This document shows, piece after piece, positions 7,080 through 63,780 of a stretch of DNA of 64,000 bases. The stretch lies in NCBI GenBank assembly GCA_034190875.2, contig CM067356.1, positions 47,769,656 through 47,833,655 of the forward strand, given 5' to 3'. A model generated the notes under the pieces. It made no database searches, was not told where the DNA came from, and saw only the letters and a list, made by a program, of their open reading frames with translations. Numbering within the stretch: the stretch's first letter is position 1; each line of letters opens with the position of its first letter. A program made the translations under genes and the position numbers. Source of the stretch: Urechis unicinctus. Its lineage: Eukaryota; Annelida; Polychaeta; Xenopneusta; Urechidae.

Positions 7080-7104
7080 GGGGGGGGGGGGGGGGGGGGG
7101 GGGG
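7080..7104. repeat. Poly(G) run of 25
   Basis: Homopolymer G, with a 26-G counterpart at 20603-20628 in unit B. Such runs can form G-quadruplexes and their lengths are often uncertain in assemblies. Confidence 0.95.
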
Positions 7105-8350
7105 TGTGGATCAGTGATAACGAGGGGATTAGTGATTAGTGGTGTCTTGTTGGCCGTTATTTTGTTCAGGTGAGAATCAAATAAACACGAGTCACGCGCT
7201 TACCCGCGTGAAATGTTGGTTATCTTTACGGATTTGACGTTGCTGACGACGTCAGTGTCAACTGTTACTTCACGATAAGCAATGTTTGTAACGTGTGTGT
7301 GAATCATCAATTCATGTGTGCTTGTGATATGAAAGATGAATCACACTGACCTCGGTGACGTTGTTTTTGACGTGTGTGTGAATCATAAATTTATGTCTGT
7401 TTCTGATATGAAAGATGAAGTACACTGACCTCGGTGATGTGGTTTGCGATGTCAATAAGGAATCTCACTAACTTCTATTGTAAGCACTATATAGCACAAT
7501 ATTGTTGGTGTGCCGTTAAAACTTATACTTACCCTACCTTACCCTTATGGCTATTACATGCCGAGCTGCAGCATTATCATACCTGACCGTACCCAGGTTA
7601 AGGCATGTTATACTCGGTATCTGGCTAATATGGCACTTTGCCGATACGGGACTTGGACCCGTATCGACTTCTTAACCTTGAGGATGATAACATTGATAGA
7701 AATAGATTTTTTTTTCAGTTTATCTTCATACCATCGAAAAGATCTGGGCAAGATATAATCTCTTTCTTTTACTAAACGTCTTCACAACTCACGGTGTGTC
7801 ACGTCATTGCGTTCTGTGGTCATATACTCATCGTCTTCACAACTCACAGTGCAGTTAGTTTTCTGATTGGTCCTTGTATGTAAGAACTGTTAGACACCCT
7901 GTGTTGGACACTACACCATGTAGATATGACGATGCAAATGATCTATTTTGTGTGCCATTTGGATATCAGGGTCATAAGTTCAAGCACTTTAGGCGTAAAC
8001 TGACTACTTAACGGGTATAATGAGATCATATGCATTTCTATACATTTCATTTTACGCATAAACATTTTCGTACGCGTTAACTGCTTGGACTTATGAACCT
8101 TATTGCCATCCGTAGCCACGTCCATCACCACACAGTGCAACACAGCATGCGTGACTGGAAGTAACAACCACATCCCCTCCTGCCGGTTCTTCCACAAGTC
8201 ACGACGCAGCGCCACCTACCATCGCTTGCACACAAGCCCGCCGAAGCAGCCAAATCATTACCTTTGGTGCCATTGATCGAAACCTACACTACAGCATTAG
8301 ACCATCGGTCATCCTGCACGCTGTGTTAACTCATTCGTCTTTAGTGCGCA

Positions 8351-11300
8351 ATGGAAATTGAATATAATCACTCGCTTTACAATGCTGACAAATACAAATC
8401 TATGGTAAGCGAGACCGAGGATTATTTCGTGGCCGTCTACTTCAGTGTATTAGGTAAGTAGACCACGTTAGTGGTTGCCCAACGCTTTGCTAAGTCCATC
8501 TTCTCCGTAAGAACATTGTATAAGTTAAAAATTCTGTCATTTGCGCGAAAGAAAAGTCGAGATTGCATTGACATTGTATCTTTCCCGCTGGCCGGTATTA
8601 GTGCTTCTATTGTGTTAAAATCAAATAAGCTTGCAAATCCCGAATCAGTCAATTTCAGTTATAACGGATAAAATATACATAAAAACCCTAAACCCAACTC
8701 GATCAAAATTCCAAAATTAACTACGACAGAAACCCCTGAATTCTCTCCCTGACTTCAGAACACCCTGTCCTTCGATAAACTTTCACCAAACTATCTAATT
8801 TTTCCCTCAGTATTGTGCGCCTATTGAAAACAAAAACCAACACCCCACCCCCGGCAGCTGGTTCCATGGTAACCAAATCATAACAATAATCCCAACAACG
8901 CTACAGTATATATGGAAGACGGGCTTATCTACTTAGGGTTACAATGGAAGTTGCAGTAAAGACCGACAGTCCTGTCTATATACTTACACAAACAAGCAAT
9001 AGCAACAAGTAGTTTCCAATGATTCTTTATGTGGTCTGAATCGTGTGCGAGTTCGTAATTGATATATGTAACTTATCTGACATTTGATGATGTTCATGTA
9101 ATTTCCGTTGCATTTTCTAGCCCATCTCTGACTATGATTTTACAACATTCATAATCATATCCATTTCTCTAAAGTAAAAAATTCTGGACTATCGCTCACA
9201 TCGATATCGCTCGTTCGTTAATTGATACCTGTATTCTGTAACTGCATGGAACATGCGTCAGTATCCCGCTGGAAAATGTTTCCACGAAGTCGTCACCGGC
9301 GGTTTTTATCACAGTCCATGGTCATAGTCCTCACGAACAATAGAAAATAACGTGAAGCAACGGAGCGATGACTTGCAACGGAGGGTGAATTAGTCCGTGA
9401 CCACGTCATTAATTCTCTCCATTTGTTTACGAGGTATGCTGGGCTTCAGCTCAGCTCCGGGGTCTAATGACTCGACAGGAGTTGGTGACGGCTGACCCTC
9501 TACTGACACTAACAAATAAAACTCATTCCGGGAAGCCAATCTGTGGCACTAAGCGATGCAATCATTGACAGGTCACCATGCCCTGATGCTAGGATCCCTC
9601 TCATGCAACACCTTGCTGATCCTCCTCCTCCGTCGTTGCTATGTGATTCTGTATGTTTTCAGGCATCCTGGCCTTGGTGTTGAATATCACGGTACTGGTG
9701 GTGAGCGGAACCAGGAGGGGATTGTTACAGCCGCCCGAATGGTTCATCGTCATCCTGGCCCTTAACGATATCACGTGGGTCCTAACCGGCTTCTACATGC
9801 CGGTCGCTTCCGGTTACCATCATCGATGGCTGTTTGGAGAAGTGGGTAAGTAGAATGATATCAAACTCTCCATTTGGATGAAATAAAATATATTCCAAAA
9901 AGTGCATTTACGTCGATGCTTTCAAGATATATGTCCATCTATATATAGCCAAATTGTGTGTCAGAGTATGTATCCAAATTTAAGGACAAGATTGCTCTGT
10001 CGGTTTTAACATTAACCTGACTACTCATTTTTCCACAAACATGTCCATAAGCTAAGCAAAGCGAGCGTCTGATTCGCAAGGAATTGCGGTTGTTCTGAGA
10101 TACGTTTGCATGCAATAGAATGTTGTGACCCAATGTGTAGTAATTGCGGCATGGTTCATGGACAACATATAGAAATATTAGGTTGTTGGTTATCTTCGAG
10201 GGTTGACTTGTTGCAGGTTGTACAGTGTACGCGTTAGTCTCCTTCCTGGTAGGTCTCTTCCACATCAACGTCATCACGATCATGAGCGTTGTGCGCTGGC
10301 TCGTCATCTGCGTTCCTACGTTTGGTGAGTGATGCATGGGCAGCACGCTAGATGATAGACAACATGCTAATACTATGACAATAACATGACAATAGCATGC
10401 TAATAACAGGCTAGCTGAATGCTAATAACGTGACATAAACATGCTAATAATATGTTAATAACTAGACTATAACATGCTAACAACATGCAAATAAAATGCT
10501 TATAACGTTCTCGTCTTCGTCATCATTTACATCATTATCACCATCACACCGTCTTCATCAATATCGTTATTAACATCTTCATTGGTATCATTGCCTTCTT
10601 CATCATTGTAATTACTATCATCGTCCTTATCATCATAGACTTCTTTTTATTTACATCGTTCGTCCAATGTTCACAAGGGTCATGTGACTTCTGTTACAGC
10701 TCGACTCGTCAAGGGCAGGAATATTATGCTCGCTGTGCTCCTAGCCTTCTTGTATTCGGTCGCATGGAGCATATTGCCGCTTTTAGGCTGGGGGGAGTAT
10801 GGCTTCGAGGCTTTTGGTCTTGTCTGTAGTCTCAACTGGCGAGCCCGGACGCGCTCTTCCTTCAACTTTATAATCACATTGCTTGTGGTTCTCTATATTC
10901 TGCCAGTGATCGTCATCACACTTTGTTACAGCCGTATTGTCATTCATATAACCTGGCGAAATATCAGCAACAGCATCAATCGACAAGCCACATACCGAAG
11001 TCGATTGATGATCAAGGTAGGTCATTGATATATATAATATTCTCTCACTTGATGCTTTCTCTCTATGCATTTGGTATTTATTACGAACATTTACCACTTA
11101 ACCCAATTATTTATTGGATTTCATTAATTGCTCAATCTTTGCCGGCTGATTGGCACAGTTAACTTGGTCATGTCGACAGCCGCTCGCAACCATAAGTAAA
11201 CTAACACTCTGTAACAATCTTATAGTACCATCCATCCATCCGTCCATCATCTCATTCCTCATTATCACTCAAAATACACGAACGTGTAAGTCTTCTTGGG

Positions 11301-11734
11301 GTTAAAACGGGAACATATTCTCTTTACGTCATACCTATAGTTTCACCATTGACAACTATGTAATGCCACTTTGATGTCCGTATCTGTGAGTTCAGATGAC
11401 ACTCGTCATGTGTTTGACATTCGTCTTGGTGTGGACCCCGTACGCTGTCGTGTCTGTCTGGTCGGCAGTCACTCCACCAGAAGATCTGCCTGACTACTTT
11501 CCCACCATCTCCCTTCTTCCCTGCCTCTTCGCTAAATCCTCCACCATCATCAACCCATGCGTCTACTTCTTCTCCATCCACAGATTCCAGAGGCATACTA
11601 AGGAAACAGCAGCAAGGCTATGCACGTTTCTCCGTCATCTGTCCAATGCCGCCACCAATAATGCTCGGTATATTTTTACAGCAGACGCTAAATGCAAGTC
11701 ATCATCGGAGATTTGCCACTCGAGCGCCGTTTGA
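8351..11734 (+). CDS. Opsin, copy A (five exons, 349 aa)
   Basis: Class A light-sensing receptor that should bind retinal in the plasma membrane. Exons: 8351-8453, 9663-9845, 10217-10324, 10700-11016 and 11396-11734. All introns are GT-AG with phases 1, 1, 1, 0, and the joined length of 1050 nt is in frame. An in-frame TAG lies just upstream of the start. Residue 6 begins a glycosylation site (N-H-S). Seven hydrophobic segments are visible, with Cys97 and Cys174 spaced exactly as the rhodopsin disulfide pair. Glu168 is at the 181-type counterion position and Tyr100 at the 113 position. TM6 has WTPYA, and TM7 has FAKSST with Lys284 as the retinal lysine, followed by NPCVY. Oddity: the E/DRY motif reads Val121-Arg122-Trp123. 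The TM7 and loop-2 motifs recall Opn3/TMT or Opn5/RGR-type opsins; the subtype is not resolved. No canonical AATAAA was found nearby. Confidence 0.93.
10355..10505. repeat. Tandem repeat of CATGCTAATAA-type units in opsin A intron 3
   Basis: Degenerate 10-12-bp units (ACATGCTAATA, ACATGACAATA). Unit B has a version nearly twice as long at 25055-25330. This is part of why intron 3 is longer there. Confidence 0.85.
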
Positions 11735-11999
11735 CGGAGAGACGGACCCCGACCTGATGAAATGGGTCTAATGTTGATGCGGTGTGCATGGAGTCACCTG
11801 TGACGTCACATGCTATGTTATACCACTCAAACCGCTGTACATTGGTCAAATGTGATATAATGATCTAAGCTCATCGATGTACAATGCATTGTATCCTGGC
11901 AGCGTTGAGGTGACCAATAGAATCATGCAGATGGAATGTTGACAACTTTAGGACACCCAAACTAGGACACAATCGTTCCATGTGAACTAGGAGACCTGG

Positions 12000-12110
12000 A
12001 CCCTGGCGGGGCATTGTCGAGTGAATCATAACGCGGGGATCATGGCGGGACACTGCCGAGTTAATTATACCACGGGGATCATGGCGGGATACTGCCGAGT
12101 GAATAATGTA
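12000..12110. repeat. Minisatellite, about 45-bp unit, 2-3 copies, at the right end of unit A
   Basis: Units contain CGGGGATCATGGCGGGACAC followed by TGCCGAGTGAATCAT. The counterpart in unit B (27008-27205) has about five copies. Homology between the two large units stops at this array, so it marks, and may have caused, the duplication breakpoint. Confidence 0.85.
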
Positions 12111-15321: not shown

Positions 15322-18300
15322 CATCTATTTACTGTTTCTAGGTAATGTCTTTGTTTAAAATATTGCATGCCCTTTCCTGCTTTAACAAGTCCTCGAGCGA
15401 TGATTACCTGGTGATATCATTGTTTGATGTAAACAGGAACCCCACCCCTGGTATTTTTATCAATCACCTCCACGGGGCAGAAGTTTATAAAGGTGTCAAG
15501 ATCGACTACAGTCACGAGGCAAGTACAAGAATGTCCAAGCTACCTTTGACTGGTTTCTGAATGATACAGAGAGTTTTCATTTTATATCAGGATGTAAATG
15601 TTTTTTATCATCATGATTTTTTTTATTTCATGGATGTGTGTTTTTTAGTCTAGGACAGAGCACATGTATTTGTATAAAATGGCGTGTTCCTATTGGTTTT
15701 CTTTTATTTATATGTGGATATTGTTGGTGACAACATCACAAAAACAGTCTAATGATGTGTTTTCATACAGCAAGTGACGCCAGAGATTTTACTTGGTGTC
15801 CTACAAGGAAACCAGGTGGCAGTCAATGGAATTGGGTCAGGTCGAGTCATCAACAGGTAAGGAAAGTAAACGATATCAAAATAAAACTGCTTTAATTAGT
15901 TCTAGTTCGACATATAATACTTAATATATTATGTGTACAATTCACATTTGTAGTTTCATTTATTTTTCTAGGAATATTGCTGTATTTGTTTTAGTGGACG
16001 TAATGACCACATATTTGTGAACATTGCGGTTCATGGAAATCATGGCTTGATAGCATATCCTTTAGGACAGGTATGACATGTAATCCACACAATTTGTTTA
16101 TTCTTTAATACAAAGTGTTTTGCCGTATAAATTGGCAACTTCCTTTGAAGTGAACTCATTCATATAATGCTTATTTTTCTGTGCAACAAGGAATATCTTT
16201 GATTATTCTCCGCTGGAGGCACTGCAACTGAAGAAAGCAATCCTCAAAATGAACAAAGCGAAACGCTACCAAAAGGTAGTTTTCTTTATGAAACGTACCC
16301 CTATACATGCTTCATGCTTGATGAATCATGATTGATTATATCTGCAACGAGTAGTTTTAGCATTTGTTTATGTATCTTATATGTCATATTGTGCTTCCAT
16401 CTATTTGCAGATGGTGTTCTATATTGAAGCATGAAATGCGGATCCATGTTTGAAAACCTACTACCAAGCAATATTAATGGTATGATATCGATTTTTTCAA
16501 CACCCCCACAACCCTAAGCATGTGTGGTTAAGGTTACAGCTGTAGGAATCTACTTCTGTGTTCATTGATCATGCTAAGAAATACCAACTTAAATTCACAA
16601 TGAAATATCAGCTTCGCTAGTTTTCAAGATCTAAAGTGCTGATTTGCTGTGAATTCCATGGAGTTCTCGTACGCGTGTTACTACGACAGGAAAAGACAAA
16701 CATACCTAGGTGATGTGTACAGTGTGAAGTGGATGGAGGACTCTGATGTGGTTTGTTCACCATTATGCTTCCTCTGACTCTATTGTCAGTAAATAAATTC
16801 GTCATTCCAAGTTTGAATCAGCTGTTGCAAAACCAATTTTTCCTTTCTTATGGCCTTGCTGTGAATTTTGTTTGCAGAAAATATTTAGCAGGGAGACTCT
16901 GCAGCGGTAATACAAAATAGTCCGTCGTGAGACCAACACCAGTCACGTGATGCAGTTTGGAGATCTGGCGAGTATAGAGACATGACAAAGTGTAGTGGGT
17001 GGTTGTCCTTTAACAGTTACAGTCAGCTAGCTGGTTACTGATTAGAATTTGAATAGAATGATTGAACTGTTTGAACTCTGGCATTGCTGTACGGTATATA
17101 TGTTGTCTTATCCATCTGACTTATCTGACTATAACGTTTCCAGGGTATTGCCTCCGACTCAGTGAGTGACTTCCAAAGATATTCTTTATACGTAGCCCCT
17201 CCACTTCTTGTTCTCCCTGACGTGCTCGTAAGTACAACTCTCATGAAATTGTAGTCTACCACTTTATGTTTTATGGTTTAGCCCTACCATTTGACACTTG
17301 AGGCAAAGTACTCGTGGTATTACCAATGCTGCACATTGTCTGTATCATGCATCTCGTGGTTTTTACCATGCTGCACATTGTATTTATCATGACAATTGAG
17401 ATATTTTCCATGATGCACATTATTTGTGCTACGGTTCCTCATATTTACCATGGTTTTTCCAAATATTTTTCAATCACGTCTCTTATGCAGTGTATTTTGG
17501 TACTAAATATATGTTCCAGAATTTTTGTTATGATCATATCATGCAACTGTTAGGGACATATTCTGCTTTAGTTATAAATATTTCTATTGTCTACAACCCA
17601 TATTCGGGACCAATGAAGTACCTAATAAAATATTATTTCATTATTAGGCACATACATTATAAATGAGTTTCAACAGATGAAATATCATTAAAACAATGAT
17701 TATAAGAGCACAGGCACACAAGCTCAAGTGAGCAGCAATCGATGTAAGACCATCATCATGATATAAGGTAACCTGGAATATCAATAAGCAATAGTAAATA
17801 TCAGTGATGCATCATTAAATTGATTGAAGTAATGAACAAGATCCACGATTAATCAAACTGCGGATCACTGACGAAAACATGATACCCCTTACTCCTCATA
17901 ACAACAAAGTTGTTCAATTTCTGCACAAATTCACATTAAATCTCACTGGAGCAGTCATCATGAACGAAAACGTGGTTATATGTACTTTGATGACATTATC
18001 TACTACGCCACATAGTTACCTTTGTGATGAGATATTATTGCTTTAGCTGTTAGTCATAGCAACAGAGCCGTATTGCAGAATTTAGGGATCACTGACAAGG
18101 ATATTCATTACCAGGCATGTTGTAGACAAGGGCAATTGCTTGGACTTCCATCGAGAATTGGATTAGAGATCGCCGCCAAAAGATAAACTAGGCGAAGAAA
18201 TCCTGAAGACGAAGGGACAGCGATTCTGGGAATATAGTTGTCAGTACGAGATTTATGTCAAGGTTATTGGATGTCATAGGAGGATACAATCGACTACAGT

Positions 18301-18404
18301 CTGCGGAGGCATAGGGGACTGTTCAATGCATGGACGTTATGATTGCTATACATTTCATAGCAATTACAATGTGCACTTAGATTGGGTTAGGGTTGGTTAG
18401 CACA

Positions 18405-18800
18405 CGGATATTAGGGTGGAGTCACAGTGATGGTTGGAATTGAATAATGTGAGGTCACGGCAGGGGATGGTGAGGTTCACTGCGGGATTATGGCGGGATT
18501 ACGGTGGTATCAAGGCGGAATTACTGTGGGATCATAACGGGAATTTTATGGGATCATGGCAGGATCATGGCGGGGTTACGGTGGGATCATGATGGGTTTC
18601 ATATGGGATTATGTTGGGATTACGGTGGTATTATGGTGGGATCATTTCGGGATTACGGTGGGATTATGGCGAGATTACGGTAGGATTATGGCGGGATTAT
18701 GAAGGGTTCATGGTGAGATCATGGTGGGATTACGGCGGGATCATGGCGGGATAACGGTGAGATCATAGCGGGGATAACTGTGGGACCATGGCTGCGATTT
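18405..18800. repeat. GGGATTAcGGTG / GGGATCATGGCG minisatellite, unit B
   Basis: Counterpart of the array at 4497-5245 but about half its length, with the same 12-bp alternating units. The length difference shows expansion or contraction after the segmental duplication. Confidence 0.9.
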
Positions 18801-19031
18801 AAGTGCCAAAATCTTTATCTCCTCAGCGACTCTGGGTATATTGCTCAACTAATGTAAAATTACTTCCAATAATACGTACAAAGATTAAGACGTGTTTAGT
18901 AAGAGAATCAAGGCCGATTGGTACGTAGGTCTTCTTTGGCGTCAATATTCCAAGAAGTCGCTCCACTCAACCGTCTGTATCCCATTGTCCTCCGACACGA
19001 GTAGCAACCCACGGCCAACTGGTTGCCCCCT

Positions 19032-19105
19032 ATTAGTAGCCTCTTACGACATGCACGAGGACACAGTGGGCCTATTCTACTCCTGGACCCACAGGGGGTC
19101 CCCCG
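19032..19105. repeat. Possible SINE conserved-core block (unit B)
   Basis: Paralog of 5487-5556, beginning TAGTAGCCTCTTACGACATG, with a GGGCCTATTCTACTCC block and then CCACAGGGGGTCCCCC. It resembles a conserved central SINE domain from memory. The family was not confirmed and no head or tail was delimited. Confidence 0.35.
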
Positions 19106-19226
19106 TTCAGTATTTCTCAACTGTACTGCGCTTAACATTACCTCCCCGCAGACGATGAAAATGCAGATTAAGAAGACAATAATGATAGTATTCATCATGA
19201 TGGTGATCATGATCATGGTTACGACA

Positions 19227-19242
19227 ATGATGATGATGATGT

Positions 19243-19329
<87 letters not shown>
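19227..19329. repeat. (GAT/ATG)n microsatellite, unit B
   Basis: About 100 bp of ATG repeat, the shorter partner of 5662-5811. Confidence 0.96.
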
Positions 19330-19330
<1 letters not shown>

Positions 19331-20602
19331 AAACATGACATCGTAGTTCGCCAATTTTCAACATTTTCCAACGTTCATCTTTTATACGACTTCGCTCAGT
19401 TGTGTCCAAATCACCTCACGCTTGGTGAAAGGCGATAGGAATTATTGTCAAAAGAAAAGCATAGGGAGAGCTAGTATTCTTTGTCACCTTGAAGCGATTT
19501 AAATCTTGATGCGAGTCGCCTGATGATATCAGTTTTACTCGATGTTAAGGATACGTAACTATACACATTCTCGCCCAAATCCTCCAATACTCATCACCCT
19601 TCACCGTTGTTGATCACTGAAACAGTAGTTACTATAGGTCTCTAGTATAATAGCAGGGACATGCGCACGTTTATATGAGTTGGTTGATTACATGTATTAA
19701 TGTGAATACATCTTATTGCAACTACACATTTAATTGCGCGCAACTGTTGAACGTTATGTCCGCAACGGCCAACCATCGTTCTCCGTTAATTCGAAGCGGA
19801 CAGGTGTAAAACAGTGACACGCGGGAAGGTTTCCCGGAAATGTCGACCCAGTCGTCTCTTCAACAGCCTGACTTGCTGTCGTTATATATCAATCCGTCTT
19901 TCAATATGAAATGCGGTTTTTAATAATTATATGACACGGTTGAATCTTGCTTATGAAGAATGATGAGAGACACTGGTCGTTTTTGAGATGTGACGGTGGT
20001 AATGAGTTTATTAATCTTTTAGGTTGGCAAACTGATTCCGTATTCCTCAAGTCCAAATATTAATTAAAAGGTTCTTTTTATATAAAAATCGTAACTTGGG
20101 TGAGGTCCAGGTTATAGATGAGACGGACTTCTATTTCTATTCTTGGTCATACGGAGTTGGCCTTCCAACTTTGTCCGTACGACGGTGGCGAAATCGTTGT
20201 CCGAATACTGAATGTCTATACCTTCTGGAGAGGTATTTATACAAGTGTGTGGCGTAGTGGTGGTACAATAACCTTTAGCTTGAAGTGAATATCAAACGGG
20301 CTGATGTTAAATTGTTATGGGAATTGACTTGCTACACCGGGTCTATTAAATTTGGAAAATGACCCATTCGGAATAGTTACTTCAGATATCAAGGTTGTGT
20401 ATTTGAGGGGCGAGGAGATTATGACTCCACGCTGGTTGACGACGCTTATTACGGTTAATACATAAAATCTTATCCATACTGACTGTCTCGAGCCGAGAGT
20501 TAGCGTTGCCAGGGACGGAGGGTGCCAGTTAGCGCCTGGGTTAACAGGTTGTTACACCATTTACCCATCCAGCGCGATCTTTTGTTCCCGCACATGCCAC
20601 GT

Positions 20603-20628
20603 GGGGGGGGGGGGGGGGGGGGGGGGGG
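20603..20628. repeat. Poly(G) run of 26
   Basis: Counterpart of the 25-G run at 7080-7104. Both are flanked by CACATGCCACG and GGATCAGTGATAACGAGG. Confidence 0.95.
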
Positions 20629-21542
20629 TGGATCAGTGATAACGAGGAGATTAGTGGTGTCTTGTTGGCCGTTATTTTGTTCAGGTGAGAATCAAATAAA
20701 CACGAGTCACGCGCTTACCCGCGTGAAATGTTGGTTATCTTTACGGATTTGACGTTGCTGACGACGTCAGTGTCAACTGTTACTTCACGATAAGCAATGT
20801 TTGTAACGTGTGCGTGAATCATCAATTCATGTGTGCTTGTGATATGAAAGATGAGTCTCACTGACCTCGGTGACGTTGTTTTTGACGTGTGTGTTAATCA
20901 TAAATTTATGTCTGTTTGTGATATGAAAGATGAAGTACACTGACCTCGGTGACGTGGTTTGCGATGTCAATAAGGAATCTCACTAACTTCTATTGTAGGC
21001 ACTATATAGCACAATATTGTTGGTGTGCCGTTAAAACTTATACTTACCCTACCTTACCCTTATGGCTAATACATACATGGATTGCAGCATTATCATACCT
21101 GACCGCGCCCAGGTTAAGGCATGTTATACTCGGTATCTAGCTGATACGGCACTTAGCCGATACCGGACTTGGTGCCGTACTGACTTCTTACCTTTGAGGA
21201 TGATAACATTCATAGATATTTTTTAGTTTAACTTCATGCCATCGAAAAGATCAGGGCAAGATATAATCTCTTTCTTTAAATAAACGTCTTCACAACTCAT
21301 CGTGTGTCACGTAATTGCGTTCCGTGGTCATATGCTCAACGTCTTCACAACTCATAGTGTGTCACGTCATTGCGTTCTGTACACCACAGTCTTGGTGTGC
21401 CATTTGGATATCAGGGTCATAAGTTCAAGCACTTTACGCGTAAACTTACAAGTCATTTTACGCGTAAAATAAGATAATGTGCATTTCTATAAATTTCATT
21501 TTACGCGTAAACTTGTCGTACGCCTTAACTGCATGGACTTAA

Positions 21543-22105
21543 AGAGACTGTTCAGCCCCATATAAGGAAAGTGGTTGCCTAGCAAGCTGCTTGGTAACAG
21601 CACCATGGAAACCAAAAATGTTACACTTTCAGTCGCTACGCGGCGCTGTGGTCTCAGAAAAAAGATCCTTGCTTCGACAGTCGCCATTTATGTTGTCGGA
21701 CATTATCCTTCCTGCTTGTCGGTCTAATGTGTGCACAATTATGCCCACAACTTGAATGAGTGAAGATTTTATGAAATCTACATTATATAACTAAAGCGAA
21801 AGAATACACATCGTTAGCGAGGTAAATTCAGAGCGCGTTATGATTTACAGCTAACATTCGTGTAGTTCATGGTTTTAGGGAGGCACCGTTATCGATGGAA
21901 CGACATAACTTAATAAAACAGATCTCCACAGTATATCATGAACATTTCCAGTCAAATAATAATGTTAAAAACTTATCAACATAACTTCTATCATGTAAAC
22001 TCGGCGGCACAAATTAGAAGATGTCATTACTTACGTCTGCGTTAATCGTAGTAATGTAATAACGAAATGATCCCTGATTGCCTTATATGTGGCTGAACAG
22101 TCTCT
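21543..22105. mobile_element. MITE, 563 bp, 25-bp TIRs, TTAA (or TA) target duplication
   Basis: The ends are AGAGACTGTTCAGCCCCATA (21543 onward) and its inverse ending at 22105. They form 25-bp terminal inverted repeats with one mismatch. Both sides are flanked by TTAA (21539-21542 and 22106-22109). The paralogous site in unit A (about 8087) is empty and reads GGACTTATGAACC, so this is a clean insertion after, or polymorphic at, the duplication. There is no coding capacity. TTAA suggests piggyBac mobilisation. A TA duplication (Tc1/mariner type) with TIRs one base longer cannot be excluded. A second, truncated copy is at 36738-36808. Confidence 0.9.
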
Positions 22106-22365
22106 TTAAGAACCTTATTGCCACCCGTAGCCACGCCCATCTACACACTACGCAACACAGCATGCGTGACTGGAAGTAACAACCACATTCCCCTCCTGCA
22201 GGTTCTTCCACAGGTCACGACGCACAGCGCCTCCTGCCATCGCTTGCACACAAGCCAGCCGAAGCGGACGAGCCATTACCTTTTCCGTTGATCGAGACCA
22301 ACACTACTACATTAGACCATCAGCCATTCTGCACGCGGTGTTACCTCATTCGTCTTTAGTGCGCA

Positions 22366-25300
22366 ATGGAAATTGAATATAATCACTCGCTTTACAATTC
22401 TGACAAATACAAATCTACGGTAAGCGAGACCGAGGATTATTTCGTGGCCGTCTACTTCAGTGTATTAGGTAAGTAGACCACGTTAGTGGTTGCCCAACGC
22501 TCTGCTAAGACCATCTTCTCCTTAAGAAAGAATATCAACATTGTATAAGTCAACCATTGTGTCATTTGCGCGAAAGAAAAGTCGAGATTGCATTGACATT
22601 GTATCCTTCCCGCTGGCCGGTATTAGTGCTTCTATTGTGTTAAAATCAAATAAGCTTGCAAATCCCGAATCAGTCAATGTCAGTTATAACGGATAAAATA
22701 TACATAAAAACCCTACACACGACTCGATCAAAATTCCAAAATTAACTTCGACAGCAACCCCCGAATCCTCTCCCTGACTTCAGAACACCCTGCCCTTCTA
22801 TACACTTTTACCAAACTATCTAATTTTTCCCGCAATATTGTCCGCCTATTGAAAACATAAACCAACACCCCAACCCCGGCACCCGGTTCCATGGTAACCA
22901 AATCATAATAATAATCCCAACAACGCTCCTATTTATATGGAAGACGGGCTTATTTTCTAAAGGTTACAATGGAAGTTGCAATAAAGACCGAAAGTCCTGT
23001 CTATATACTTTCACGAACTAGAAATCGGAAATAGCAACAAATAGTTTCCTAGAATTCTTTTTGTGGCCTGAATCGTGTGCAATTTCGTAATTGATATATG
23101 TAAATTATCTGACATTTGATGATGTTCATGTAATTTCCGTTGTATTTCCTTGCCCATCTCTAACCTTGATTTTACAACATTTATAATCATATCCATTTCT
23201 CTAAAGTAAAAAATTCTGGACTATAGATCACATCGCTTGCACCGATATCGCTCGTTCGTTAATTGATACGTTTGTCAATTTTGGAATTGTTGTCGCATAA
23301 AACATCCACACCACAATTGACCACTCTCCCCCATAACCCCAACCTCATTATTCCATTTGATATTATTGCAAAGGGATTGATTTCACTCTTGTACTTGACA
23401 CCAACGACCAACCCCAGGCAGCTGTCCTTCAAAGTGACATTGAATTTTTTGCAATTAACCTGTTGAAATCTCATTTTTCCCAAGGAGATTTATTTTCCTA
23501 GCTCTACCTCACATCGTGTTATCAGCGACATATAACGCTTCTATTGAGATAGTAGGTTTGAACATCCAAGTCATCACTCTCCATGGCAGACATGTTTGAT
23601 GCAATGCTAACATAACATGCGAATCCCAGCCTGCGCAGAAGCCGATGCGCAGGAGATCGCCAAGTCATGTTACACACTTGGCGCAAGCGCGAACAACAGA
23701 TGGTGAGATTCCTAACAGCTTCGTGGGTTACAAGATGACACAAAGGAATGCTGGTGGTCAATAAGCAGGTGCCATAAATGGTCGATTCGACCACAGAAGA
23801 GGGGAATTGTTTATCGGCCGACACGTTTACGAATGTTGAGGCCAGAGTGATTGCCCTGTCAGTCGCCGTATGGTCGCTTATATAACCAGTAATGAATTAT
23901 GTAACTGCATGGAACCAGCGTCAGTATCCCGCTGAAAAAATGTCTCCACGAAGTCGTCACCGGCGGTTTTTATCACATTCCATGGTCATAGTCCTCACGA
24001 GCAATAGAAAATATCGCGAAGGAACGGAGCGATGACTTGCAACGGAGGGTGAATTAGTCCATGACTACGTCATTAATTCTCTCCATTTGTTTACGAGGTA
24101 TGCTGGGCTTCAGCTCAGCTCCGGGGTCTAATGACTCGACAGGAGTTGATGACGGCTGACCCTCTACTGACACGAACTGTGCCCTCTACTGACACTTACA
24201 AGTAAAGCTCCATATAGGGAAACCAATCTGTGGCACTAAGCGATGCAATCATTGACAAGTCACCATGCCCTGATGCTAGGATCCCTCTCACGCAACACCT
24301 TTCTGATCCTCCTCCTCCGTCGTTGCTATGTGATTCTGTATGTTTTCAGGCATCCTGGCCTTGGTGTTGAATATTACGGTACTGGTGGTGAGCGGAATCA
24401 GGAGGGGATTGTTACAGCCTCCCGAATGGTTCATCGTCATCCTGGCCCTTAACGACATCATGTGGGTCCTAACCGGCTTCTACATGCCGGTCGCTTCCGG
24501 TTTCCATCATCGATGGCTGTTTGGAGAAGTGGGTAAGTAGAATGATATCAAACTCTCCTTTTGGAGGAAATAAAACATATTCCAAAAAGTGCATTTACGT
24601 CGATGTTTTCAAGATGTATGTCCATCTATATATAGCCAAATTGTGTGTCAGAGTTTGTATCCAAATTTAAGGACAAGATTGCTCTGTCGGTTTTAACATT
24701 AACTTGTCTACTCATTATTCTGCAAACCTGTTGGAAGGTGATCTGTCCATAAGCTAAGCAAAGCGAGCGTCTGATTCGCAAGAAATTGCGGTTGTTCTGA
24801 GATACTTTGCATGCAATAGAATGTTGTGACCCAATGTGTAGTAATGGCGGCATGGTTCATGGACAACATATAGAAATATTAGGTTGTTGGTTATCTTCGA
24901 GGGTTGACTTGTTGCAGGTTGTACAATGTACGCGTTCGTCTCCTTCCTGGTAGGTCTCTTCCACATCAACGTCATCACGATCATGAGCGTTGTGCGCTGG
25001 CTCGTCATCTGCGTTCCTACATCTGGTGAGTGATGCATGGGCAGCACACTAGATGATAGACAGCATGCTAATTATATGACAATTACATGACAATAGCATG
25101 CTAATAACATGCTAGCTGAATGCTAATAACGTGACAAAAACATGCTAATAATATGCACTTAACATGACAATAGCATGCTAATAACATGCTAATTACATGC
25201 TTATAACGTGACATAAACATGCTAATAATATGCACTTAACATGACAATATCAAGCTAATAACATGTTAATAACTAGACAATAATATGCTAACAACATGCA

Positions 25301-26744
25301 AATAAAATGTCAATAACATGCTTATAGTGTCCTCGTCATCCTTTACATCATTATCATCATCACACCATCGTCATCAATATCGTTATGAAAATCTTCATTA
25401 GTATCATTTCCGTCATCATCGTAGTAATAACAATCATCGTCCTTATCATCATAGACTTCTTTGTCATTGGTATCAGCACCATTGTCGGCTACATCATCGT
25501 CAATGACTTCATCGTCGTCACGACCGTTATCTTCTCTCATGACATATCTTATTTACATCGTTCGTCCAATGTTCACAAGGGTCATGTGACTTCTGTTACA
25601 GCTCGATTCGTCAAGGGCAGGAATATTATTCTCGCTGTGCTCCTAGCCTTCCTGTATTCGGTCGTTTGGAGCATATTGCCGCTTTTAGGCTGGGGGGAGT
25701 ATGGCTTCGAGGCTTTTGGTCTGGCCTGTAGTCTCAACTGGCGAGCCCGGACGCGCTCTTCTTTCACCTTTATAATCACATTGCTTGTGGTTCTCTATAT
25801 TCTGCCAGTGATCATCATCACGCTTTGTTACAGCCGTATTGTCATTTATATAACCTGGCGACATATCAGCAGCAGCATCAATCGACAAGCCACATACCGA
25901 AGTCGATTGATGATCAAGGTAGGTCATTAATATATATAATATTCTCTCACTCGCTGCTTTCTCTCTATGCATTTGGTATTTATGTACGAACATTTACCAC
26001 TTAACCCAATTACTAATTGGATTTCATTAATTGCTCAATCTTTGCCGGCTGATTGGCACAGTTAACTTGGTTATGTCGACAGCCGCTCGCAACCCTAACT
26101 TAGGGCCTAAGTGAACTAATACTCCGTAACAAACGTATAGAACCGTCTCTCCATCCGTTCATCATTTCATTCCTCATTATCACTCAAAATACACGTACAA
26201 TCCTTAGTGTGAGGGTTAGTTCAGGATTCCGAATGTGTCATATATAATTGAAAAGATTGTGCCAAGCTTACAACACGTGTGTTTGTACCGGTTTGTAAGT
26301 CTTCTGGGGGTTAAAACGGGAACAAATCCTATTTATGTCATACCTATAGTGTCACCATTGACAACTGTGCAATACCACTTTGATGTCCGGTATGTGTGAG
26401 TTCAGATGACACTCGTCATGTGTTTGTCATTCGTCTTCGTGTGGACCCCGTACGCTGTCGTGTCTGTCTGGTCGGCAGTCACTCCACCAGAAGATCTGCC
26501 TGACTACTTTCCCACCATCTCCCTTCTTCCCTGCCTCTTCGCTAAATCCTCCACCATCATCAACCCATGCGTCTACTTCTTCTCCATCCACAGATTCCAG
26601 AGGCATACTAAGGAAACTGCAGCAAGGCTATGCACGTTACTCCGTCACCTGTCCAATTCCGCCACCAATAATACTCGGTATATTTTAACAGCGGACGCTA
26701 AATGCTTGTCATCATCGGAGATTTGCTGCTCGAGCGCCATTTGA
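22366..26744 (+). CDS. Opsin, copy B (five exons, 349 aa)
   Basis: Paralog of the opsin at 8351-11734 with identical exon structure: 22366-22468, 24350-24532, 24918-25025, 25602-25918 and 26406-26744, with GT-AG introns of phases 1, 1, 1, 0. The joined frame is intact. By eye about 26 of 349 residues differ from copy A, mostly in exons 4 and 5. Key residues are kept: Cys97/Cys174, Glu168, Tyr100, WTPYA, Lys284 in FAKSST, and NPCVY. It shares the unusual Val-Arg-Trp in place of the E/DRY tripeptide, so that change predates the duplication. Intron 1 is about 670 bp longer than in A because of an extra block at about 23270-23890. The sequence upstream for at least 4 kb matches unit A, so both copies probably kept proximal control elements. 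The opsin subtype is unresolved. Confidence 0.93.
23270..23890. other. Unit B-specific block in opsin intron 1
   Basis: The paralogous position in unit A (about 9225) lacks these roughly 620 bases. I found no terminal inverted repeats or clear target duplication, so I cannot tell insertion in B from deletion in A. The short open frames on both strands have no recognisable similarity. Confidence 0.7.
25055..25330. repeat. Expanded CATGCTAATAA-type tandem repeat in opsin B intron 3
   Basis: Higher-copy counterpart of 10355-10505. Unit variants such as ACATGCTAATAATATGC alternate with ACATGACAATAGCATGC. Confidence 0.85.
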
Positions 26745-27007
26745 CGGAGAAATGGACCCCAACCTGATGAAATGCGTCATACGTTGGTGCGGTCTGCATG
26801 GAGTCGCCTGTGACGTCACATGCCATGTTATACCACAAAAACCGCTGTACATGGGTCAAATGTGATATAATGATCTAATCTCATCGGTGTACAATGCCAT
26901 GTATCTTGGCAGCGTTGAGATGACCGGATGGTATCATGCAGATGGAATGTTGACAACTTTAGGACACCCAAACTAGGACACGATCGTTCCATGTGAACGG
27001 AGACCAG

Positions 27008-27205
27008 GACCCTGGCGGGGCACTGTCGAGTGAATCACAACACGGGGATCCTTGCGGGATACTGCCGAACTTATCATAACACGGGGAATACGGCAGGACA
27101 CTACCGAGTTAATCACAACACGGGGATCCTGGCGGGACACTGCCGAGTGAATCACAACACGGGGATCCTGGCGGGACACTGCCGAGTGAATCACAACACG
27201 GCGAT
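27008..27205. repeat. Minisatellite, about 46-bp unit, about 5 copies, at the right end of unit B
   Basis: Units contain GGCGGGACACTGCCGAGTGA and ATCACAACACGGGGATCCT. This is an expanded version of the array at 12000-12110. Homology to unit A ends within or just after it. Confidence 0.9.
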
Positions 27206-37966: not shown

Positions 37967-37984
37967 AGGCCCGGTCACACAGCC
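37967..37984 (+). repeat. Left terminal inverted repeat of the Harbinger element
   Basis: 18 bp, AGGCCCGGTCACACAGCC, directly preceded by the TAA target duplication. It differs from the right TIR by one base. Confidence 0.95.
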
Positions 37985-38450
37985 CTCCACGGGCGTATCG
38001 CGGCCGAATCACGGCCAAAAATTTCTGCCCGTGAAGCAGACGCTGTTGGACGCTTTGAAGTCGCGATAAAGACGCGATACAGCCATACTTTACCCGTCGT
38101 TACACGCGGTAAGAAATTCACACGCGGTTGGCCGCGCGAAAAAGTTTTGGGCTGCCCAAAAATTTAGACCGCGGGTAATCGCGGGCGGTACACGTGGTAC
38201 ACACGCGGTAAAGACGCGGTACAGACGCGGAACGAACGTGCTAGGACGTGCTACGGCCGCGGTTAAGACGTGGTTACACGCGGTAGGACGCGAAATTTTA
38301 GCGGGTAATCGCGGGTGGAGCACGGTCATAGCACGTTTGTTCCGCGTCTGTACCGCGTTGTTATCACGTGCATTAGCGTGTGTACCGCGTGTAAGCACGG
38401 ACAAACGCCTTTCTCCGCGTAAACAGCGCGCCCCAATACCGGCCTAATCA
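37985..38450. promoter_or_regulatory. Left subterminal repeat region of the Harbinger element
   Basis: GC-rich stretch with many copies on both strands of ACGCGGTA, CGCGGGTAATCGCGGG and TACACGCGG. Harbinger Myb-like proteins are known to bind subterminal repeats, so these are candidate binding sites (inference). Confidence 0.7.
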
Positions 38451-38528
38451 CGTTCAATTGCGTCTTGTACACGTCCCAAATACGATTGTCCACGGCCTAA
38501 TCGCGTCCGTACAACGTCTGATTTTAGG

Positions 38529-38537
38529 TATATAAAA
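38529..38537 (+). promoter_or_regulatory. TATA box of the transposase gene
   Basis: TATATAAAA lies 62 bp upstream of the ATG at 38591 and downstream of the subterminal repeats. A start site about 30 bp downstream, near 38560, would place the upstream ATG (38546) outside the transcript. Confidence 0.7.
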
Positions 38538-38590
38538 AGCGCGATTTGCCGAGCATTCGTCAGTTGTGCTCCAGACGTCAAGGGGTGAAC

Positions 38591-39898
38591 ATGGATCCCC
38601 GTCACCGTAATGACCTCGTCTTGCTGCTCCAGCAGCATCAGAACCAAGTGGTACAGGTCCATCAGCTCCTCATTGACAGAAGAAGACGAAGGAGGAGGAG
38701 GAGGGTGGTCCGGAACATCTGGGTGCGCGACTGGATTGGCAGGAGACCTGAGCTGGGGCTGTACGATCGTCTCATGGTGGAGCTCCGTAATGAAGATCCA
38801 AGGGCCTTCCAGAACTTCATGAGAATGCCACCTGCCATGTTCGATGAAATTGTGCAGAGACTGACACCAGCCCTTACCAAGGAGACCACCAACTGGCGAG
38901 CACCCCTTGATCCAGGCCTGAAGTTTGCCCTCACCCTGAGGCACCTTGCTTCTGGCGCCAAGTACCGTGAGATGCAGTATGGCTGGAGGGTCCCTCACAC
39001 CACCATCAGTCTGGTGTTGCGCGAAGTGTGTGCGGCCATCGTCGAGGAGTTCCGTGATGAGCTGCTCGCGCCACCACAGACTGCTGCAGAGTGGCGTCAG
39101 ATTAGTGACAATTGGATGAACAGTTGGAACTTTCCGCATGTCATTGGTGCAATAGACGGCAAGCACATTGCCTGTAAATCTCCTGCCAACACTGGGTCCG
39201 ACTACTTCAACTACAAGGGCTTCTTCAGTGTCATCCTCCTGGCAGTCGTCACATCTGACTACAAGTTCCTCTGGATAGACGTCAGCGGCAAGGGGTCTTC
39301 GTCTGATGCCCACATCTACAATGCAAGTGATTTCAGAGAGGGTCTCCAGAACAATGACATTATTGGGTTCCCACAGCCTGATCCTCTCCCAGGTGACACT
39401 GAGGATATACCTTACTTTCTGGTGGGAGATGATGCTTTCGCACTCCGGACCTACATGATGAAGCCGTATGGTAACAAGGACATGACCAGGAAGCAGAGGA
39501 TATTCAACTATAGACTCTCGCGAGCCAGAAGGGTAGTTGAGAATTCGTTTGGCATCCTTGCCAACCGATTTCAAGTTCTCCTGACTACCATGATGCATGA
39601 AGCTGACACTGTGAGGCTCCTGGTCAAGGCGTGTGTACTCCTCCTCCTCCACCTGATGAGAACACGTTACCCGGTGATGCAGAACAGACTGGTGGATTTC
39701 GAGCGTCCAAATGGAGCCCTGGTGCCTGGTGCCTGGCGTGCAGGCAGGAACCTTGACGACACGAGACCTGACCGAGTACCAGGAAACAATAGAGATTTCA
39801 GGATAGCCAAGGCTCAGAGGAACCTCATCATGGAGTGGTGCAACTCACCGGCTGGAAGGGTTCCATGGCAGGATGACATGCTCCTACCCCGTTTCTAG
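38591..39898 (+). CDS. Harbinger transposase (HARBI1-like DDE nuclease), 435 aa
   Basis: Catalyses cut-and-paste transposition of the element. It is a single open exon. I chose the ATG at 38591 (MDPRHRND) over the in-frame ATG at 38546, because the TATA box at 38529 predicts transcription starting between them. In the 435-residue numbering, an Arg-rich run is at 30-38 and a helix-turn-helix-like segment at about 115-150. The catalytic triad motifs are GAIDGKH (Asp189), VGDDAF (Asp280) and VVENSFG (Glu317). The SGKGSSSDAHIYN motif, typical of the family, is also present. Length is normal for the family and no stop or frameshift is seen. The stop codon lies in the first unit of a 60-bp tandem duplication. 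A polyadenylation signal is at 40182. Confidence 0.95.
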   Translation: MDPRHRNDLVLLLQQHQNQVVQVHQLLIDRRRRRRRRRVVRNIWVRDWIGRRPELGLYDRLMVELRNEDPRAFQNFMRMPPAMFDEIVQRLTPALTKETTNWRAPLDPGLKFALTLRHLASGAKYREMQYGWRVPHTTISLVLREVCAAIVEEFRDELLAPPQTAAEWRQISDNWMNSWNFPHVIGAIDGKHIACKSPANTGSDYFNYKGFFSVILLAVVTSDYKFLWIDVSGKGSSSDAHIYNASDFREGLQNNDIIGFPQPDPLPGDTEDIPYFLVGDDAFALRTYMMKPYGNKDMTRKQRIFNYRLSRARRVVENSFGILANRFQVLLTTMMHEADTVRLLVKACVLLLLHLMRTRYPVMQNRLVDFERPNGALVPGAWRAGRNLDDTRPDRVPGNNRDFRIAKAQRNLIMEWCNSPAGRVPWQDDMLLPRF

Positions 39899-40010
39899 TT
39901 ATTGTGACAGTGACACTGTTATTGTGATTGATCATGCTATGGAGTATGCAGTTTCTAATTATTGTGAATGTGACAATGTTATTGTGATTGCTCATGCTAT
40001 GGAGCTGTGA
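39891..40010. repeat. 60-bp tandem duplication spanning the transposase stop
   Basis: Two exact-length 60-bp units (39891-39950 and 39951-40010), both beginning GTTTCTA and both containing GTTATTGTGATTG and CATGCTATGGAG. The first includes the TAG stop. Confidence 0.93.
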
Positions 40011-40181
40011 CATTTAATCTATGAACTGATGATGGTTAAACTAAGGATTATTCTACAATTGTTATAACATGAATGTATAATATGATGTCGAATTGCTGTA
40101 TAATATATTTTATTTATATTAAATTTTATTTGATTGTTTGTGTGTTTGTGTTGGGGGTGGTGGAAATATAAGAAAACAAGA

Positions 40182-40187
40182 AATAAA
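40182..40187 (+). terminator. Polyadenylation signal of the transposase gene
   Basis: AATAAA about 285 bp after the stop codon. The minus-strand gene ends nearby (its TTTATT signals are at about 40325-40335 on the plus strand), so the two transcripts probably converge or overlap. Confidence 0.55.
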
Positions 40188-40525
40188 AATTGGATTAAAA
40201 TTATTATCTTCTGTACTTTGTAGAAGATAAATGTCTTAATCTAACTTTTATTTCTTGTCATTTGAAATTTACTAATATTTTTATTGTAATAGTTTTTCAT
40301 TTTTATTACACACAATTCACACACTTTATTTTATTTACCTAGGAAACACAAACAAATGTTAACAATTTAACAACAGTACAACTTTATTATTATATCAAAG
40401 TTATCAAAAGCAGTGAAGTTAACAGCAAGGCATACATATAGCCAATCGTCCACAGCCTAAAAACACAGTAATATAAAGATATCACAAATCAGTCACAAAA
40501 TCACAAATCAGTCACAAAGCACACA

Positions 40526-43002
40526 CTACTCCGTAGCATCCGAGGAGGTCTCATCAGCCTGACTGACCTGACTGGCTTGGTCCCCTGAGGCAACGTGAGG
40601 TCTTGCTTGGCCAGGTGAAGTTGTGGAAAGGTTCGGGGTGTTGAGAGTTCCCTGAGAGGTCTGAGAGAGCCTCCCCATACCACTATCCATTAAGTTCCAC
40701 TCCTCACCAATGGTAGAGGCCAAAAGCCTTCCCACAGATTCAGCTGATTCCCTGGTACGGCGTGGAGTCTGTAGTGGTTGCTGGGTAACCTGCTGGTGCT
40801 GCTGCTGGGGAAGCTGCTGCTGCTGCTGGGGAACCTGCTGCTGCTGATAACCACCACCATACTGCCAGTTGCTCCACTGGTCGTAGTTGGCCTGGGGCTG
40901 GTAGTACTGCTGCTGCTTGAAGTAGGTCTGACTGCAGTAGGGTTGTGAGGAGGCTGTGCAGGCTGCTGGTGCAGACGCTGAGGGGCCCGGTCTGGCCCAT
41001 GATGAAGAAGGCCCTTGAGTGTCACGGCTGCTGTCACGTTGACCCTGTCCTCCCTCACGCATAATATCCGTGATGAGCTCCTTCATGACAGAGTACTGCT
41101 CCTGGGGAGCAGTGCGGAGCGTATCAGACACATAGCGGATGAAGGCCTCTCGGTCTGACTGAGCCTGAGACCTCTCCTCCAGCAGCTTCTCCAGCAGTGC
41201 CTGGTTGGCCTTCATGGTAGAACGCAGTTCCTGCATCCAGCTCTCCTCCTCTAGGCTCTCCTCATCCCTCCTCCTCCTCTTGCGCCGGCGACTAGACGTG
41301 GTCGAGCCCTGCTCCGCTGCTGCCAATTCCATCTCTTCCAGGATGTTGGACTGGCTTTCCACGGAGTCATGAGTTTCCAGCCAGGGCAGTGCATGGGAGG
41401 TCGAGGCAGCAGCAGATGCAGCAGACGAGGCAGTAGCATTAGCAGAGGGGGCACGTGGCAGACTGACGAGGGTGTCTGGAGCCTCAGTGGGGATCGAACC
41501 TGAAACAAGTTAAACATTTGTTTAATATGATGGCATTGACATTTTGCATTAAAACATGTTAAAGCATTGTATACATTTAATCACTTCAACAATTTTTTGG
41601 AATATACTTTTGGAATATAGTTTTGAAATTTAGTTTTTGAATAAAGTTAAATGAAGTTTAATAAACTTTATTATTATATAGTTTACTGAAGCGAACAAAT
41701 ATATTAAATGTCTTTACAAAAATAAACAAATTAAGGCAAATTTGTCAAAAATTTATACAATAAAATTACTATATTTAACTATTTTATTGAAATTTCAAAA
41801 CTTTTCAAATAAATGTAATGACATGTACTTACTTTTGTAGAAGGCAATGTTCTTCAGCACCCACTTGTCCCTATCCGTCAACAGCTTTGTTGCCTGGCCA
41901 CTCGTCTTCTTGGATAGCTTTACGTACCAATCTTTAACGTTCTTCCACCAGTTCTGCAGATGCTTGAACGTGACCCCGATCTCTTGTGCCTTCATCTCCC
42001 ACGCTGACTTCTTCTTATGGTAATCCTTGGTGCTCCGGAGCCAAAGGTAAGAGTTGCCCTGAAGCCACTCAACCAGATCCTGCTGTACCTCGTCGGGGAG
42101 ACTCCAAGCTTGCTTGGGAGCACCATCAGCCTTCCTCTTGCCCTTGCCCTTGCCCTTCTGCTTTTTGCGACCTGGCTCTTGCTCCTCCTCCTCCTTTTCC
42201 TCCTCCTCCTCTTGACGTGGGGTGGGTTCCGGGGATTTCGGAGAACCAGGCTCTTCCGACACAGGATCCTCCTCCTCCACTCGCATGGCGCCCTCCCCAG
42301 TGTTGGCAGCGGGTGTGGTCACAGGGGTGGTGGTGGCAGCAGTGGTGGTGGCAGCAGATGTAACACCTGAAAAGGCAGAATAATAAAAGTATTTTTTAAT
42401 AAACAATAATCGTTTATAAAAAAATATACATACAAATAATAATTTTTTGGGGGGGATAATTTCTTCAGCGACATGCTTTTCATTCCAAATTTGGCACACG
42501 AGATAAAATATCCTCCCATTAAATTGTTTCTAATCACAGTATGCATTGCACGTTACTCAAAATTAATAGTGTACACAAAATAAATTTAAAAAAAGATTTC
42601 CTACTGCTATCTTCTATAATGCATAACAACTTTTTTCTTTAAATGAATGAATTTTGAACGAACAGTGGTCCACCATTCCTTGACGAAGATTTAAAAATTT
42701 TAAAAATTATAACATAAATTGTACTCACCATCAAGAGATTCTTCCTCCTCTTCAACTAGACTGGCAGCTCTTGGACTGACAGCAGGACTGGCCTCGACCT
42801 CGCCACGAGCACTCGGAACTTCGGCAGCAGAGTGGACGACAGCTTGCACCTCCACTGTGACTCCTGCCTTGGGCTTCTTGGCGGCCTCCACTGGCACTGG
42901 GCTGCCTTCATCTGCTGCCTTCGCCCTCGGCTTCTTGCTCGCACGCTGCTTCTTCTTCTTCTTGGCCGGGGAACTCGACGTGGGCTTCTTCTTCGGTGCC
43001 AT
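40526..43002 (-). CDS. Harbinger second protein (Myb/SANT-like), three exons, 593 aa
   Basis: DNA-binding partner that in this superfamily brings the transposase to the nucleus and the transposon ends. Exons on the minus strand: 43002-42729, 42366-41833 and 41499-40526. The introns have donors GTGAGT and GTAAGT, with TTTTCAG and GTTTCAG acceptors. All junctions are phase 1 and the joined 1782 nt is open. Residues 1-20 are Lys/Ser-rich (MAPKKKP..), and acidic and KGKGKGKRK tracts precede a trihelix/MADF-like Myb domain at about 180-245 (Trp-rich: VEWLQGN.. YLWLRSTKD.. LQNWWKNVKDWY). Exon 3 has a predicted nuclear signal RRRKRRRR (about 340), a helical segment, and a Gln-rich region at about 463-513. 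TATA-like TATAATAAA lies at 43063-43073 in the same orientation. Confidence 0.9.
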
Positions 43003-43039
43003 AGCTTGATCTTCACGGGACTGTGTCTTGAGCGGTTAT

Positions 43040-43256
43040 GATTTCTACAGCCCGGTTCGGCTGCTTTATTATACCCGTGGTAGGCCGCGGTACCGCCGCG
43101 CTTCACCCGCGATAAGGACGCGGAACAGTCGCCGGCGTCTGTTCCGCGGGCATACCACGGGTAAACCGCGGGTAAGCCAATTTTGCACATTTTCCACCAC
43201 GGGCAACCGCGGGTAAAAAAAAATCGCGAAATTTTACCAGCGATACAGACGCGAAA
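43040..43256. promoter_or_regulatory. Right subterminal repeat region and promoter of the minus-strand Harbinger gene
   Basis: Repeated CGCGGGTA, CCGCGGTA and GACGCGGAACAG motifs echo the left subterminal block in inverted orientation. A TATA-like box for the minus-strand gene lies at about 43063-43073. Confidence 0.65.
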
Positions 43257-43274
43257 GGCTGTGTGACCAGGCCT
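43257..43274 (-). repeat. Right terminal inverted repeat of the Harbinger element
   Basis: GGCTGTGTGACCAGGCCT, the inverse of the left TIR with one mismatch, directly followed by the TAA target duplication. Confidence 0.95.
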
Positions 43275-44055: not shown

Positions 44056-44745
44056 TTATGCTGCAACCCATTAAGCTGTTCTTGAGAGAGTAGGTGTATG
44101 TCAACTCATTAGGCTGTTCGCTGGAGACAATGTGTAATTGTCACCCCGGTTGAGGGTTTCATGAGAAGTAATGTGTATGTCAGCTCATTAAGCTGTTCGT
44201 GAGAAGCACTGTGTGTGTATAACCCCATTAAGCAGCAAATGATAAGCAATGTTTCAGCTCATTAAGCTGGTCGTGAGAAGCAATGTGTATATGCCAGCAC
44301 ATTAAGCTGGTCGTGAGAAGCAATGTGTATGTGCCAGCACATTAAGCTGCTCGTGAGAAGTAATGTGTATGTGTCAGCACATTAAGCTGCTCGTGAGAAG
44401 TAATGTGTATGTGGCAGCACATTAAGCTGCTCGTGAGAAGTAATGTGTATGTGTCAGCTCATTAAGCTGCTAATGAGAATTAATGTGTATGTGTCAGCAC
44501 ATTAAGCTGCTAATGAGAAGTAATGTGTATATGCCAGCACATTAAGCTGCTCGTGAGAAGTAATGTGTATGTGTCAGCACATTAAGCTGCTAATGAGAAG
44601 TAATGTGTATGTGTCAGCACATTAAGCTGCTAATGAGAAGTAATGTGTATATGCCAGCACATTAAGCTGCTCGTGAGAAGTAATGTGTATGTGTCAGCAC
44701 ATTAAGCTGCTAATGAGTAGTTATGTGTATGTGTCAGCACATTAA
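44056..44745. repeat. Minisatellite, 40-bp unit, about 17 copies
   Basis: Consensus ATTAAGCTGCTCGTGAGAAG then TAATGTGTATGTGTCAGCAC. Left copies are divergent and central copies (about 44280-44720) are nearly identical. Variants TCGTGAG and TAATGAG alternate in blocks, suggesting higher-order amplification. Confidence 0.95.

Positions 44746-50248: not shown

Positions 50249-63780
<13,532 letters not shown>

Follow-up and report, generated by a model that had tools for sequence, protein, structure and literature searches.

The window, a 64,000-nucleotide stretch of Urechis unicinctus DNA on CM067356.1 (C15:47769656-47833655; features in the window are numbered from its first letter), contains a two-gene transposon of the animal type that belongs to the cut-and-paste superfamily PIF/Harbinger. 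Its family is of a known kind: it has a DDE_Tnp_4-type transposase, short terminal inverted repeats (TIRs), a 3-base-pair (bp) TWA duplication and derivatives that moved in trans. An earlier note called the copy in the window structurally complete. That is right for its ends and reading frames, and not for its transposase protein, which has lost a conserved asparagine (Asn). We consider it probable that the family was active recently, that its two functions are by now divided between copies, and that the window copy is no longer autonomous.

The argument turns on a motif behind the catalytic glutamate. LHN at this place is known as a general mark of PIF/Harbinger transposases. When the window transposase is compared with nine sisters, their AC.LLHNLM becomes ACVLLLLHLM. 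The Asn of this motif is kept in all 15 relatives examined and is missing from the window copy. All 9 sister copies compared at the motif encode LHN, some of them being frameshifted elsewhere (the L053, C4 and C5 copies were left out of this comparison), and so do both older relatives, on C16 and C3 (88% and 84% DNA identity). Among four distant Harbinger lineages of the same genome (46-66% amino acid identity) three have LHN and one has LYN. The window match to DDE_Tnp_4 breaks off at profile position 156 of 158; those of the two other open copies run on to 158, and their scores are 103.3 and 100.0 bits against 97.2 for the window. Since an Asn kept by every relative examined has been lost and a residue gained, the window transposase is probably impaired. 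An open frame is not an intact protein when a private change falls on such a residue. The suggestion that this copy is possibly active keeps the backing of its frames and ends, and is weakened by the missing Asn. The loss lowers the claim of activity and not that of descent, since the sisters carry the motif. There are further private amino acid changes in the window copy, V112F and N137T in the transposase and S309W and P473A in the Myb-like protein. Outside the motif the copy has four private coding changes of a single base, and each of them alters a protein. This fits what is expected without selection, though four are too few for proof.

Next to consider is which genes remain open in which copies. 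A genome-wide protein search with the transposase, in which 97 of 951 candidates were scored, gave a full-length stop-free match in three young copies: the window copy, C13:23357305 (L063) and C13:73182653 (L065). Both L063 and L065 have an open transposase with LHN and are without a working Myb gene. At its end the L065 transposase frame enters a deletion and picks up a few extra residues. It is nothing out of the ordinary for a transposase to be open in this host; of the 108 matches listed, 13, belonging to several lineages, are near full-length and stop-free. For the Myb gene, all 37 candidates of a search with exons 2-3 were scored and six copies span the query (window, L031, L011, L030, L063 and L050), while the remaining ones match only parts of it. 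The window copy is the only one of these six fetched copies with a complete Myb frame over all exons. The other five stop at codons 80 to 289, although L030 retains the Myb domain ahead of its stop. In the C4 copy, read only in part, the transposase is interrupted by a stop, and the Myb match is without query positions 308-422. Among the long copies read, none is free of defects in both genes. The transposases of L063 and L065 could complement the window copy.

The two genes of the window copy are as the earlier note described them. The transposase is an unbroken frame of 435 codons in which D189, D280 and E317 are present, and it matches Pfam DDE_Tnp_4 (PF13359) at 9.6e-28 (cut-off 24.8 bits). 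The three exons of the Myb/SANT-like gene join at GT-AG sites to give 593 amino acids. Among the joins enumerated a single one gives this frame, and the runner-up reaches 275 amino acids. The stretch of exon 2 that bears the domain (query 297-579) can be recognised in older relatives at 72-75% DNA identity. A TATA-like sequence precedes the ATG of each gene and may serve as its promoter.

The family has been mobile recently, and this is strongly supported. The assembly searched is 1.19 gigabases in 926 contigs. The earlier note had proposed a search for near-identical TIRs; the 18-mer end AGGCCYGGTCACACAGCC has 116 exact occurrences, 58 per strand, and its reversed control has 0. A search with the left 534 bp gave 111 candidates, and all 40 that were scored, the window included, are 98-100% identical. 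We compared 63 loci, made up of 60 fetched stretches and three non-duplicate loci of the left-end search, out of a larger number of places. The divergence set is the window plus 62 loci, without L025, without pieces below 90% identity or 60 bases, and without five left-end-search loci that are duplicates of the window or of other loci. At 11 of 5308 sites (0.21%) the window copy departs from the majority base, the lowest value of the 63 sequences, whose median is 0.81%. Sites were placed by matching to the window copy, so the comparison may be tilted slightly towards it, and indels were not counted. The copies are therefore not many percent apart, the outcome that had been named as telling against mobility. 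At least 90% of the left 534 bp is covered by 59 sequences, and there the median divergence is 0.94%; 181 of the variants are singletons and 47 are shared. Such an excess of singletons is the pattern that would be left by a fast burst. The window copy is the least diverged insertion compared. An empty copy of its insertion site was looked for in the assembly, where the joined flanks match only themselves.

The derivatives give a second line of evidence for the recent mobility that the earlier note had proposed. A right end could be paired with 45 of 62 left ends, and the resulting copies are 1028 to 8305 bp long. Most of the 63 loci are internal-deletion derivatives of this element, and derivatives of 1541 bp or shorter (about 1.0-1.5 kb) account for 35 of these 45. 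What the main classes retain is about 0.4-1.2 kb at the left end and 0.25-1.0 kb at the right. Their left/right junctions recur, mostly on different chromosomes (for example 803/5064, 745/4762, 664/4774-4777 and 1022/4934). Several classes also have diagnostic variants that their members share. In the 664/4775 class a variant at position 21 is found in five of nine copies and in no other copy, and one at position 345 is found in the same five plus one copy outside the class. In the 803/5064 class four of six copies share a variant at position 231. Because the junctions recur and the classes share these variants, the derivatives were copied after deletion, which means movement in trans. One can imagine that deletion struck repeatedly and independently at the same junctions, but this is unlikely given that several classes share diagnostic variants.

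Target site duplications agree with this. Identical 3 bp stand on both sides of 30 of the 45 two-ended copies: 14 are TAA, 11 are TTA and 5 are other triplets. Two of the 30, L054 and L055, have identical flanks and count as one event. Four insertions had flanks resembling other fetched loci, and related empty sites were found for two of them, L014 and L028. These empty repeats are contiguous across the join, have one copy of the triplet and are 65-73% identical. For L049 and L059 there was no related empty site among the fetched loci. The flank of L014 (C2:35906325-35908550) resembles a DNA polymerase gene, which we take to belong to a Polinton/Maverick-like repeat, and related stretches occur in L032, L062 and L060. 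L045 and L046 (C9:22101670-22118575) hold four left ends in a local array, all with identical ten-base flanks, which probably stem from tandem duplication of one insertion.

The ends of the window copy also bear out the earlier note, which gave 18-bp TIRs with a single mismatch and TAA on both flanks. The left and right TIRs are identical at 17 of 18 positions. The T form of the mismatch is the sole case among the 100 places listed of the 116, and it is in 0 of 47 copies compared. The subterminal regions are rich in CGCGG, which occurs 18 times in the left 560 bp (shuffle mean 5.2), 11 times in the right 259 bp (shuffle mean 2.3) and 0 times in the 4489 bp between them. In zebrafish Harbinger3_DR, as described in PMC9710019, the Myb-like protein binds a 9-bp subterminal motif, so the CGCGG-type repeats are likely its counterpart and the likely target of the Myb protein here.

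Harbinger3_DR also encodes a transposase and a Myb-like protein. The available accounts state that both are needed for transposition and that the Myb-like protein carries the transposase into the nucleus (PMC2836001, PMC9710019). It is a reconstructed consensus (PMC2836001, PMC9710019), whereas the window element is a natural copy. By this analogy we expect the window family to need both proteins. Its Myb/SANT-like protein would bind the CGCGG-rich repeats and bring the transposase to the nucleus. The transposase would then cut at the TIRs, insert at TWA and duplicate it. The family has burst recently and has multiplied its internally deleted derivatives in trans. The window copy combines a complete Myb frame with a transposase that is without the conserved Asn. 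It is probably not autonomous at present, and if the family still moves, the Myb protein of this copy would have to work with the transposase of another.

Similar arrangements are known. The rice elements Ping and Pong have two genes and move the non-autonomous mPing in trans, and their proteins are described as exchangeable (PMC2836001). The likeness is a two-gene element serving a derivative in trans; the differences are the plant lineage and the stretches of both ends, given above, that the main derivative classes keep here. Harbinger-Snek of the sea kraits (Laticauda), with relatives in echinoderms, bivalves and teleosts, also resembles the window family by its description in PMC8437027, the comparison being one of description and not of sequence. 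It too has a transposase and a Myb-like protein, a recent burst, variants with a solo open reading frame, and short non-autonomous derivatives sharing its ends, and the L. laticaudata genome is described with a single fully intact copy (PMC8437027). It differs in making up 8-12% of its genomes (PMC8437027), against 116 exact ends counted here. A further difference is that, in the one copy found here whose two frames are both open, the transposase motif is altered.

Older relatives exist in the same genome, at C16:9041274, C3:67383453, C15:46131895 and C17:38722420, with 76-82% amino acid identity in the transposase. Those on C16, C3 and C17 share an opposite-strand Myb-like stretch after the transposase. 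This stretch is just 66-81% alike in DNA, and these relatives stand outside the recent burst. Against a young copy the dN/dS of the C16 and C3 relatives, the ratio of nonsynonymous (dN) to synonymous (dS) divergence, is about 0.29 (dS 0.30 and 0.42, dN 0.09 and 0.12), measured on just 237-240 bases and with a C3 relative that is itself fragmented. Such a ratio is in line with purifying selection having acted on the transposase ahead of the burst. There are also other Harbinger transposase lineages at 46-66% amino acid identity (for example C15:33869175, C4:54232028, C16:51251910 and C9:69787163). Some of them have long stop-free frames in more than one copy, and these lineages may be further recently active families. 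A search for relatives in viral contigs and plasmids found none.

One can imagine that the window copy is fully autonomous and currently active, the motif change being tolerated. Its frames are both open, its divergence is the lowest of 63, its ends agree at 17 of 18 positions and its splice sites are canonical. But the Asn it lacks is kept down to lineages of 46% identity, and its right TIR has a private mismatch. The motif change is found in 0 of the 9 sisters read there, so this copy has no known offspring (the C4, C5 and L053 copies were not read at that place). We find autonomy improbable. It would be less probable still that the motif change or the open frames are artefacts of assembly. 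The change is known from one assembly, and one reading of it is that a CTC run expanded in frame and one AAC codon was lost. Yet the frame is not broken, and elsewhere this copy is very close to its sisters. There is next to no chance that the pair is a domesticated transposase and Myb protein with a host function. The finding of just one copy with a complete Myb frame speaks for domestication. We reject it on the TIRs, the target site duplications and the many near-identical young copies, and the private coding changes give no sign of selection for function.

A relic family deserves more weight, although on balance we think it unlikely. In this scenario the burst has ended, and neither single copies nor copies in combination are able to move any more. 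It overlaps with the explanation we prefer and denies the complementation. Every long copy read is defective in at least one gene, and a median divergence of 0.81% means that the bulk of the copies are not brand new. On the other side, the window copy is just 0.21% diverged, and two open LHN transposases and one complete Myb frame coexist in the genome. One can go further and propose that the family is split and mutually dependent. The sole complete Myb protein would come from the window copy on C15 and the transposases with intact motif from L063 and L065 on C13, and the derivatives of about 1 kb would be mobile only while these loci co-occur. We offer this strict form tentatively and rather doubt it.

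It must be said that several results weigh against the reading of a recently active family with divided functions. The gap in DDE_Tnp_4 bits between the window and the other open copies is small, and DDE_Tnp_1 scores L065 below the window (19.0 against 23.9). A single-sequence AlphaFold model of the window transposase was useless (mean predicted local distance difference test score 36.3). A search of solved structures for a relative of the transposase gave only two hits, both to unrelated molecules with E above 0.5. The match to a Myb-like domain is weak and below the Pfam cut-off (PF10545, E 9.8e-4, 19.9 bits against 22). The fetched copies and scored transposase candidates are a part of all those in the genome. 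No identical 3-bp pair flanks 15 of the 45 two-ended copies. Finally, in the left 400 bp the within-class distance is 1.51%, just under the 1.75% between classes. Because the two barely differ, the derivative classes are nearly as old as the burst.

Features of the transposon copy in the window
Feature	Position	Strand	Basis or remark
Left target site duplication TAA	37964..37966	.	read in window sequence
Left TIR AGGCCCGGTCACACAGCC	37967..37984	+	form found at 99 of 100 TIR places listed
Left subterminal region, CGCGG / CGCGGTA-rich, partly in 11-bp steps	37967..38526	.	putative protein-binding region
Putative TATA box of transposase gene, TATATAAAAA	38529..38538	+	sequence seen, function putative
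DDE transposase open reading frame, 435 amino acids plus stop	38591..39898	+	open reading frame, Pfam match
Catalytic Asp189	39155..39157	+	translation of the frame
Catalytic Asp280	39428..39430	+	translation of the frame
Catalytic Glu317	39539..39541	+	translation of the frame
Private compound motif change	39638..39652	+	sisters ...AC.LLHNL..., window ...ACVLLLLHL...; Asn gone, one residue (Leu) added
Myb/SANT-like gene exon 3	40526..41499	-	spliced frame
Myb/SANT-like gene exon 2, Myb/MADF-like domain	41833..42366	-	spliced frame, Pfam, genome search
Myb/SANT-like gene exon 1, lysine-rich N-terminus	42729..43002	-	likely nuclear localisation signal
Right subterminal region, CGCGG-rich	43016..43274	.	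CGCGG counts against shuffles
Putative TATA box of Myb-like gene, TATAATAAAG	43064..43073	-	sequence seen, function putative
Right TIR AGGCCTGGTCACACAGCC	43257..43274	-	single mismatch at a CpG, private to window copy
Right target site duplication TAA	43275..43277	.	read in window sequence

Elsewhere in the window, a block of about 10 kb is present as two direct copies (2214-12104 and 17235-27113), with pieces mostly 80-92% alike. The block contains exons of a rhodopsin-type G-protein-coupled receptor (7tm_1) and several shared tandem repeats. Fibrinogen_C exons lie at 60659-60991 (1.5e-16) and 63301-63780 (7.6e-36). Long minisatellites are found at 44162-44745 (period 40), 52613-53241 (period 32) and 58568-59084 (period 65).

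Open frames and good ends are not sufficient to call a transposon active. Set beside its relatives, the window copy is confirmed as recently mobile and at the same time shows a probable defect. If the split state is true, this would be a natural two-component transposon decaying into complementing loci.

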